In this document: positions 5,074 to 27,379 of the stretch, in pieces | Layout of the letters: each line of letters opens with the position of its first letter | Position numbering within the stretch: position 1 is the first letter of the stretch | Source: Candidatus Desulfobacula maris | GTDB lineage: Bacteria; Desulfobacterota; Desulfobacteria; Desulfobacterales; Desulfobacteraceae | DNA length: 32,674 bases | Assembly (NCBI GenBank): GCA_014383445.1 | Contig: JACNHV010000257.1 | Coordinates: 1 to 32,674, forward strand | Direction of reading: 5' to 3' | Program-made: the position numbers and the translations under genes | The notes under the pieces: generated by a model | The model's input: the letters and a program-made list of their open reading frames with translations, nothing else | Databases searched by the model: none | Told to the model about the DNA's origin: nothing

Positions 5074-6180
5074 TCAGACCAAAGGTTTGGGAAGGAAAAT
5101 TTTGGAATAAAGCCCTAAAGCATACCGGTCTGTCATGCTGGCAATCAAATCACAAACCGAGCGTTTAAGAGCATTTTTTGAAGAATCCCATGGGGCCATT
5201 TCCATTTTTTCCAACTCCTTCTGCAGAAGGTCAGGTTCTTTTATGAAGTAATTATAAAGACTTATGATCACCTTTTTTGCCTTTGAAAATTCGTTGTGAA
5301 CTGCTGGTGAACGATACACTTTATCATATAGGAATTTTCTTAATATTATCATGGCATGGAAAGTATCCTGGCCCATATCAAGGATGAACTTGTCATTCTG
5401 TGGCCCGCTGTTATACACCAATTGCTCAATCATGATGCTGGCTCTCTGGGCGTGTGTTTCCCCTAGTTTTTTAATGCAAATGTCTGGAACCTCTGTTGCT
5501 AAGATAACCTTGCCTCTCAATGCATCATCAAGGTCATGGTTTAAATAGGCGATGATATCTGCCACCCGGACGAGTTTTCCTTCGACTGTGCTAGCGGTCT
5601 CACCAAGAGTTGCCGGGAAAATATTGCCAAATCCTTTGGAGTGTTTTAGGATACCATCCCTGACTTCCCGGGTCAGGTTAAGGCCCTCCCCTCTGTTCTC
5701 AAGGGAATCCACCACTCTCAAACTTTGGTCGGCGTGTGAAAAATGGGGAGAATGAACCTCGATCAATGCAGTTTCACCGCCATGGCCAAATGGTGTGTGG
5801 CCCAGATCGTGACCCAATGCAATGGCTTCGGCAAGATCTTCATTCAGATACATGGCTCTTGCAATAGTTCTTGAAATTTGGGCTACTTCAAGAGTATGGG
5901 TAAGTCTGGTACGATAATGGTCTCCCAGGGGGGAGAGAAAAACCTGGGTTTTGTGTTTTAACCGCCTAAAGGCATTTGAATAAACGATCCTGTCCCTGTC
6001 AAGCTGGAAAGGTGTTCTGATATTATATGTGGTTTCTTCGTCGCCCCTTCTTTTTGCAGTGGAACTTAATGTGCCGTAAGTCGAAAGAAAATTTTTTTCT
6101 CTAATCTGAAACTGTTCCCTTATACAAAGGTTTTTATCTGAAATTTTTTTTTGTATATATATTTTCTTTTTTGTTTCCAT
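5074..6180 (-). CDS. dgt: Deoxyguanosinetriphosphate triphosphohydrolase-like protein
   Basis: An HD-superfamily dNTPase expected to cleave dGTP (or other dNTPs) to the deoxynucleoside and triphosphate, balancing nucleotide pools. It has 368 residues, the size of the short dgt-like class. Metal ligands are visible: His95 in RLTHTLEVAQ, His124-Asp125 in ALGHDLGHTPFGH, and a later Asp in VADIIAYLNHD. The family hallmark NAFRRLKHKTQVF is at about 69-81. The family usually begins near IREQ, about residue 20 here, so the first ~19 lysine-rich residues are an extension. ATG at 6180 has no visible Shine-Dalgarno; it is preceded by a tandem AT palindrome (6182-6202). First gene of the leftward dgt-ykgJ-like-(yvcK-like) group and divergent from the TadA-like gene. 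Confidence 0.88.
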   Translation of the reverse strand: METKKKIYIQKKISDKNLCIREQFQIREKNFLSTYGTLSSTAKRRGDEETTYNIRTPFQLDRDRIVYSNAFRRLKHKTQVFLSPLGDHYRTRLTHTLEVAQISRTIARAMYLNEDLAEAIALGHDLGHTPFGHGGETALIEVHSPHFSHADQSLRVVDSLENRGEGLNLTREVRDGILKHSKGFGNIFPATLGETASTVEGKLVRVADIIAYLNHDLDDALRGKVILATEVPDICIKKLGETHAQRASIMIEQLVYNSGPQNDKFILDMGQDTFHAMIILRKFLYDKVYRSPAVHNEFSKAKKVIISLYNYFIKEPDLLQKELEKMEMAPWDSSKNALKRSVCDLIASMTDRYALGLYSKIFLPKPLV

Positions 6181-6181
6181 A

Positions 6182-6202
6182 AATAATTATTGAATAATTA
6201 TT
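6182..6202. repeat. Tandem AATAATTATT palindromes at the dgt start
   Basis: AATAATTATT occurs at 6182-6191 and again at 6193-6202; each copy is its own reverse complement. The pair ends two bases from the dgt start codon, in the divergent dgt/tadA-like interval (6181-6319), where a ribosome site would be expected. It may be an operator or simply AT-rich leader. No good sigma-70 pair for either gene stands out here. Confidence 0.4.
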
Positions 6203-6319
6203 AAAATTTAATACACTACATCTGTTATACAAAAAGCAGGTTGAACCTCAATGGGTTCTATTTGGTCATATGAAACATGGTTTGTAAAGGGTTATTTCAT
6301 TTGGGAGAGGTGATTTCAA

Positions 6320-6847
6320 TTGGATTATGAATATTACATGGGCTTTGCATTGGAACAGGCCAAAAAAGCATTTGACCAGGGGGAATTCCCAGTGGGCTGT
6401 GTGATTGTGCAGGGAAAAAAAGTGATTGCAACCGGAGCAAGGCTGGGAACAACTCAAAACAAAGCTTTTTTCAATGAGATTGATCATGCTGAGATAAGGG
6501 CATTAAAGCATCTTGAAAAAAGTAATATTGAGTTTTGCCCTGAAAAATCAATCCTCTTTTGTACCATGGAGCCCTGTCTGATGTGCTTTGGCGCTATTAT
6601 TCTGTCCGGCATAAAAAAAATAGTATATGCATATGAAGATCCCATGGGGGGCGCAACAAAATGTGATTTGGAAAAGTTACCGTCCTTATATCAGCAGTGC
6701 TCATTAGAGGTTATTTCTGGGGTATTGCGACAGAAAAGTCTTGATTTTTTTTATGATTTTTTTAATAAAGAGGATAACTTGTATTGGAAAAACAGTTATT
6801 TGGAAGAATATACCTTTGATCAGAAAAGAGAGAAGAATTCAGAATAA
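6320..6847 (+). CDS. TadA-like nucleoside/tRNA adenosine deaminase
   Basis: Cytidine-deaminase-fold protein of 175 residues. The zinc site is complete: His56-Ala-Glu58 (HAEIRAL) and Pro85-Cys86-x-x-Cys89 (EPCLMC). The N-terminus (YMGFALEQAKKAFDQGEFPVGCVIV) is the family's usual opening, which supports the TTG start at 6320; GGGAGAGGTG lies about nine bases upstream. TadA converts adenosine-34 to inosine in tRNA-Arg; other relatives deaminate guanine or free nucleosides, and the region after the zinc site (YAYEDPMGGATK) is not a textbook TadA sequence, so specificity is open. It is divergent from dgt and ends three bases before the infC leader region. Confidence 0.8.
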   Translation: MDYEYYMGFALEQAKKAFDQGEFPVGCVIVQGKKVIATGARLGTTQNKAFFNEIDHAEIRALKHLEKSNIEFCPEKSILFCTMEPCLMCFGAIILSGIKKIVYAYEDPMGGATKCDLEKLPSLYQQCSLEVISGVLRQKSLDFFYDFFNKEDNLYWKNSYLEEYTFDQKREKNSE

Positions 6848-26271: not shown

Positions 26272-26595
26272 ATGAAAAAAGACGGTGGATTGATCAGGAA
26301 TTGGCAACTTCATCACCTGATTTTACCGGACATAGAGGGTTTTGAAGAAGAATTTTTAGCTACTTTCCCCGGAGCTTTGCTTGACCCAGGACCCTTGAAG
26401 TTCAGTGGTACTGTTGTTGAAGATTCAGCTGGTAGATATAAACCTGGCTGGCACATGATCTCATCTTATATCTGCTCAATTGATCGAGAAAGAGGGGTTA
26501 TTGAAACAATGAATACCATTTACAAGGTTATTGATGAGGGCAATGATGAGTTGCCGGATATGGGTAACAATATTTTAAACGTTTTTTATCGATAA
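26272..26595 (+). CDS. Hypothetical protein, DUF6957-like
   Basis: A 107-residue acidic protein with no signal peptide or membrane segment. The stretch TVVEDSAGRYKPGWHMISSYICSIDRERGVIETMNTIYKVIDEG (about residues 46-89; quoted in parts: TVVEDSAGRYKPGWH, then SYICSIDRERGVIETMNT, then IYKVIDEG) resembles the core of the DUF6957 family as I remember it; no function is established. ATG at 26272 is preferred over a TTG 18 codons upstream, although the ribosome site (AGGA, 12 bases away) is weak. It is followed 54 bases later by the small zinc-finger-like gene in the same direction. It may be part of an accessory gene cluster. Confidence 0.55.
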   Translation: MKKDGGLIRNWQLHHLILPDIEGFEEEFLATFPGALLDPGPLKFSGTVVEDSAGRYKPGWHMISSYICSIDRERGVIETMNTIYKVIDEGNDELPDMGNNILNVFYR

Positions 26596-26649
26596 GGCTA
26601 AAGCTGTAAAGTTTCACAACAAACCATCTGAAGGAAAGAGGAAGAGATA

Positions 26650-26844
26650 ATGGCACATAACTGTAAAGAATGCGGCTTCCGAGCAAAATATGACAACGCT
26701 CCAAAGTCATTTTTAGGCCGTGTATGGAGATGGCACGCAGGATGGTGCCCAGGGTGGAAAAGATATATTACCTCATTACCCGATGCTGAACGTATTAAGT
26801 TGGCTGAAAAGTATAGTATGGAAAAATATAAGGGGACACGATGA
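26650..26844 (+). CDS. Small CCHC zinc-finger-like protein of unknown function
   Basis: A 64-residue basic protein. Cys5-x2-Cys8 near the N-terminus (NCKECGFRAKYD) and His29-x3-Cys33 in RVWRWHAGWCPGW make a plausible CCHC metal site; the middle is rich in Trp and Arg, which suits nucleic-acid or protein binding. A helical tail follows (SLPDAERIKLAEKYSMEKY). From memory, short proteins with CGFRAKYD and WRWH...CPGWK recur in deltaproteobacteria, without known function. GGAAGAG is a good ribosome site. Its TGA overlaps the ATG of the RHH gene (ATGA), so the two are translationally coupled. Confidence 0.75.
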   Translation: MAHNCKECGFRAKYDNAPKSFLGRVWRWHAGWCPGWKRYITSLPDAERIKLAEKYSMEKYKGTR

Positions 26845-27008
26845 CAGAGGGAATAAAAGACCAGTGCCAAGACCCTACCCAAAGCATAACAATTGATTTA
26901 CCTTGTCCGCTTGCAGAACGGGTTGAAAGGTATGCCAAAAAGAATGAAACAGATGTAACAGTAGTGTTGATTGAGGCCTTGGATGATTTCTTGAGAAAAC
27001 AGGGATGA
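26841..27008 (+). CDS. Small ribbon-helix-helix (CopG/Arc-like) protein
   Basis: A 55-residue protein too short for most gene callers. It shows a beta-strand QSITIDLP (about 14-21), helix A PLAERVERYAKKN (24-36) and helix B DVTVVLIEALDDFLRKQ (38-54), the layout of dimeric RHH DNA-binding proteins such as CopG, Arc and many antitoxins. Its ATG overlaps the previous gene's TGA by four bases. It may repress its own operon or be the DNA-binding half of a two-protein module with the zinc-finger-like partner. No toxin-like fold is evident beside it. Confidence 0.7.
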   Translation: MTEGIKDQCQDPTQSITIDLPCPLAERVERYAKKNETDVTVVLIEALDDFLRKQG

Positions 27009-27379
27009 TTTATGATTGTGGAAGGTATCTTATCCTTATATCTTGTTGCAATTAAGAAAGCATGAGTAAGCTCGTTAATATATATTCATCCAACTTTGAA
27101 AATTGTTTCCAGGACTAGGTCGAAAATGTTCTTGGTCGCCAATTATGTAGCGAGGTTATTTTGGTATATTGTACCAGAATAAATTATATTTCCAACCAAA
27201 GTTGATTTTTCAAAACACCTTTACACAAATTCGAAACGTTGATATTGATTTACAAATTAAAATTAATAATCATTGCAGTCGAATAACATTATAAATTACG
27301 TGAAAAAGTCTGCACACTAACTGGTTATATGTTTTAAGAACCTATAGTGAAAATTTATTCAAACAAATTAGGATTATCA
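27009..27379. other. AT-rich stretch without a recognisable gene
   Basis: The first part holds only a 17-codon ORF (27012-27065, MIVEGILSLYLVAIKKA) that looks like a remnant. The rest is visibly richer in A+T than the flanking housekeeping genes and contains no hairpin terminator, tRNA or direct-repeat array I can support. It may be scar DNA from past insertions or deletions. Confidence 0.5.

Follow-up and report, generated by a model that had tools for sequence, protein, structure and literature searches.

The two very small overlapping genes found in the window (the whole stretch of 32,674 nucleotides of Candidatus Desulfobacula maris DNA analyzed here) are best read, with a probability that we put at roughly 70%, as two unrelated small genes juxtaposed in this lineage only. 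The first, A, normally lacks a fixed operon partner; the second, B, is as a rule either solitary or located after a GntR-type gene. Being lineage-specific, the proposed micro-operon is of little import. Family A carries more weight: its proteins of about 62 residues are spread across phyla, combine a W-x-W-H-x3-C-P-G core with putative metal ligands that are invariant, and correspond to no family in the libraries searched.

Arrangement of the two genes and extent of their pairing

An earlier note on this DNA had described two tiny genes sharing an ATGA, the first with a C-x2-C-x20-H-x3-C pattern and the second with a ribbon-helix-helix (RHH) layout, and had read them as a coupled regulatory or antitoxin-like unit. 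The open reading frame list confirmed both genes, with their positions and lengths, and the spacing of the pattern in A (C5, C8, H29 and C33) was also correct. The features concerned are as follows:

26272-26595, forward strand: upstream neighbour, DUF6957-like protein of 107 aa, also occurring where neither A nor B is present and lying outside the A+B block
26649-27035, forward strand: A+B block, about 90% alike in congener G018, with unrelated 5' DNA and divergence soon after B
26650-26844, forward strand: ORF A, 64 aa, ATG start, C-x2-C-x20-H-x3-C protein with the core WRWHAGWCPGW
26662-26673, forward strand: CxxC codons of A (C5 to C8), invariant in the 20-row and 64-row alignments
26734-26748, forward strand: HxxxC codons of A (H29 to C33), invariant in the same two alignments
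26841-27008, forward strand: ORF B, 55 aa, putative ribbon-helix-helix protein, in ATGA overlap with A

A Shine-Dalgarno-like purine-rich stretch precedes each ATG (GGAAGAG for A and AAGGGG for B). Comparison of the window with the pair-bearing congener gave dN/dS values of 0.11 (A) and 0.20 (B); these are rough since the genes are short, and both genes look to be under purifying selection, as fits translated, constrained proteins. Chance open reading frames are therefore not at issue, given the homologues found for each gene, the four conserved residues of A and the low dN/dS. An Rfam search around the pair returned no element close to its gathering score, and promoter and terminator scans found no more sites there than in shuffled sequences.

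We then considered how far A and B occur together, scanning the fetched loci with the profiles of these two families alone. With 121 distinct A genes and 36 distinct B genes compared, the two were adjacent at three places only, each in one of two congeners: in the window (contig C55), on contig C84 of the same genome, where A lacks its CxxC half, and on contig C81 of congener G018. At the sole other fetched locus with both genes (L073), about 1.5 kb separates them and they are on opposite strands. Thus, the motif in A and the RHH-like character of B stood, but the conserved coupled unit was not supported, as outside this lineage no A homologue among the genes compared was beside a family B gene. 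Type II toxin-antitoxin genes are conserved as a pair and, with three pairs in two congeners, A and B are not, so that a family-wide toxin-antitoxin reading was rejected. Moreover, no gene family recurred next to A in the best 80 of 285 loci, beyond groups of close relatives. A codirectional open reading frame lay within 60 bp downstream of 42 of the 121 A genes, an upper figure given that the frames were called mechanically. The simplest reading of the pairing is a single lineage-specific event, and the copies could cooperate locally in this lineage.

The three sites also bear on how the pair arose. The copy on C84 matches window positions 26679-27018; in G018 homology begins with the start codon of A, in C84 it begins within that gene, and at both sites it soon fades past B. 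The C84 copy has CPRW in place of CPGW in its shortened A, together with an intact B that is 91% identical to that of the window. The 5' flanks are mutually unrelated, with sharp breaks in homology: in the window there is a DUF6957-like gene, in G018 a shortened open reading frame that resembles DUF72 proteins, and in C84 a frame for a small membrane protein (the latter two named by eye). Three sites with unrelated 5' flanks indicate that the block moved or was copied as a unit. The region yielded no convincing terminal repeats. Separately, the DUF6957-like gene is present at 88-96% identity in sporadic congeners (G024 twice, G006 and G004); its differing surroundings there suggest that it moves as a single gene.

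Under the juxtaposition reading, A would have come to rest directly upstream of B in the lineage of this species and one congener, and B would now probably be translated by coupling, as A lies directly upstream with an ATGA overlap. It is improbable, by our assessment, that in this lineage A and B genuinely work as a regulatory or toxin-antitoxin unit of two genes, with B repressing the operon and A either modulating B or being the controlled partner. Such a unit would account for the ATGA overlap, the purifying selection on both genes between the two pair-bearing species, the occurrence of the block as a unit at three sites, and the weak Pfam matches to CopG_antitoxin (best E 8e-5) and Antitox_RHH in some B members. 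However, the pairing recurs in no further genome searched, A is widely solo, which would be unusual for a toxin, the C84 copy retains B next to an A without its CxxC part, and PADLOC gave no match for any of the genes. Slightly less probable still is that A, B and the DUF6957-like gene are parts of a mobile-element or integron-type cassette array: the block does sit at three unrelated sites and the DUF6957-like gene is sporadic despite its high identity, but convincing terminal repeats are lacking, inspection by eye of the short flanks read around the copies revealed no integrase or transposase (attC sites were likewise searched by eye only), and the DUF6957-like gene and A+B are found apart.

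Family A: motif, spread and likely role

All but six of the 121 distinct A genes have the pattern C-x2-C-x(17-23)-H-x3-C, and the six without the full motif mostly look truncated or frameshifted. Conservation of the four ligand-type positions, on which the earlier reading of A as a metal-binding protein depended, was thereby upheld, the same positions being invariant in alignments of 20 and 64 rows. Invariant columns in the larger alignment include C5, C8, R11, D15, S20, G23, W26, W28, H29, C33, P34, G35 and Y55, and the core consensus is R-x-W-[RK]-W-H-x-x-[WF]-C-P-G-[WF]. Remoter relatives preserve a CxxC...WHxxxCPxW pattern. Searches of Pfam, NCBIfam, PHROGs, PADLOC and PDB sequences with the window protein gave no match, other members gave only scattered chance-level matches, and a literature search by accession or motif string returned no paper.

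The AlphaFold2 (AF2) model of A consists of four short helices, at moderate confidence (pLDDT 75.6), and a structure search with it found no match in PDB or BFVD. With a model of only moderate confidence and no known-fold match, the metal site is a putative one. Lys and Arg together exceed Asp and Glu (counted by eye), and A is a small, basic, Trp-rich protein that is probably zinc-stabilised. It may form a small helical domain closed by one Zn2+, in which an Arg/Lys/Trp surface would bind nucleic acid or ribonucleoprotein. Given its invariant ligand-like residues, its surplus of basic over acidic residues and the fact that it lacks a partner gene, we infer that A most likely binds nucleic acid (RNA or DNA) or a ribonucleoprotein, although a basic, Trp-rich composition is no proof of nucleic-acid binding.

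Matches to A were obtained in 21 of 58 related genomes, some with two or three copies, and a scan of one genome per species gave 285 related loci, the best 80 of which were kept and read. The titles of these best 80 name Desulfobacterota, Acidobacteriota, Bacteroidota, Calditrichota, KSB1, Ignavibacteriota, Fermentibacteria, Planctomycetota, Myxococcota, SAR324, Spirochaetota and others; most source genomes are metagenome-assembled, so that some phylum assignments may be binning errors. This concern does not touch the A homologues on plasmids of the gut Bacteroidales Segatella, Phocaeicola and Parabacteroides, two of which were read (L173, positions 5989-6788; L172, positions 5989-6189). On the Parabacteroides plasmid, the A gene shares a single base with a type 1 glutamine amidotransferase gene; on the Segatella plasmid, ermG and an IS1380-like transposase gene are a few kb away from A.

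Identity to the window protein is 55-79% for every row of the 64-row alignment bar the nearest relative. Presence is patchy, both in the home phylum (41 of 395 genomes) and elsewhere (6 of 296 genomes in the phylum of a Bacteroidales genome, and 5 of 199 in that of a Terriglobia genome). High identity combined with patchy presence suggests transfer between phyla. The family tree was set aside as proof of such transfer, having too few columns and almost no supported forks. A phage origin was likewise dismissed, since the IMG/VR scan found no relative and the sole match was one unverified faecal 'phage' scaffold. An apparent fusion of A within a 349-aa frame (L019) proved to be read-through from upstream, where A has its own ATG.

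Tentatively, and at odds somewhat short of even, family A may be an uncatalogued single-domain putative zinc family of about ten phyla, with high identity and partly spread by transfer, that has a general cellular role (e.g., RNA or ribosome binding) and was overlooked because its members have only about 62 aa. It is in any case a good candidate for a new small-protein function, testable in culturable hosts such as Desulfospira joergensenii, Desulfoluna limicola and gut Bacteroidales.

Family B and its genomic neighbours

The RHH layout proposed for B is supported by weak but consistent profile matches and by a two-helix AF2 model. B of the window matched PHROG 582, 'Arc-like repressor', at E 1.1e-5 over residues 8-54, and the family profile hit a CopG-family chain in the PDB (9kkd) at E 0.006. 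The window protein itself had no Pfam or NCBIfam match, and its relatives gave sub-threshold Pfam matches to RHH_1, CopG_antitoxin and Antitox_RHH. In the single-sequence AF2 monomer (pLDDT 76), helices 22-34 and 39-54 follow an extended N-terminal stretch; the N-terminal strand, which requires a dimer, is absent from it. Invariant positions in a 16-row alignment are C9, P21, C22, E26, R27, A32, E45, A46 and F50-L51-R52. On the basis of its fold, B is a putative DNA-binding RHH regulator that would dimerise and bind operator DNA.

Within the family, 37 of 86 genomes carry a relative of B, and family B is a Desulfobacteraceae-centred group of small RHH-like proteins, normally encoded alone or after a GntR-type regulator gene. 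For ten of the 36 B genes, such a gene lies 2-74 bp upstream; it was recognised via a motif string and named GntR from resemblance. In one clade, solo B genes directly downstream of a GntR-type gene are seen in L041-L044, L073, L185, L194 and L198-L200. The GntR-type gene and solo B are more likely to be a functional pair than A and B. In addition, a common leader around TTTTTCATTGCAT precedes the solo B genes within one clade. A similar leader lies about 100 bases upstream of solo B in L033-L037, L039, L040 and L177; that of L033 contains TTGCAT-N13-ATGCAA and TTGGtaggCCAA, which are possible candidates for a promoter and an RHH operator.

Comparison with known systems

B resembles RHH proteins of the Arc/MetJ/CopG kind (PHROG 582; Pfam RHH_1, CopG_antitoxin and Antitox_RHH) in its predicted strand-helix-helix order, its length and its weak profile matches; unlike them, it falls below the Pfam gathering scores, has an invariant Cys pair (C9 and C22), and was found with no toxin partner.

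For A, the ligand order C-x2-C ... H-x(3-5)-C is that of the C2HC finger (FOG/MYST type) and the retroviral-type zinc knuckle. The spacer between the two ligand pairs is about x12 in the C2HC finger and x4 in the zinc knuckle. A has the four conserved Cys/His positions of the CCHC/C2HC class (64 invariant sequences; 115 of 121 genes) but neither a known-class spacing nor a profile match, as its spacer is x20, no Pfam, NCBIfam or PDB match was obtained, and it is predicted to be helical without a beta hairpin.

Small stand-alone zinc-finger proteins are on record in archaea: HVO_0758 of Haloferax volcanii is reported to belong to a class of stand-alone zinc-finger microproteins of <70 aa, described with two C(P)XCG motifs (PMC10716476), and Brz of Halobacterium is reported as a small stand-alone zinc-finger protein (PMC2253796). 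Claiming no homology, we note that A shares with these microproteins its small size and a Cys-based zinc motif, putative in A, and departs from the Haloferax ones in its CxxC-x20-HxxxC arrangement, its Trp/Arg core and its spread across bacterial phyla.
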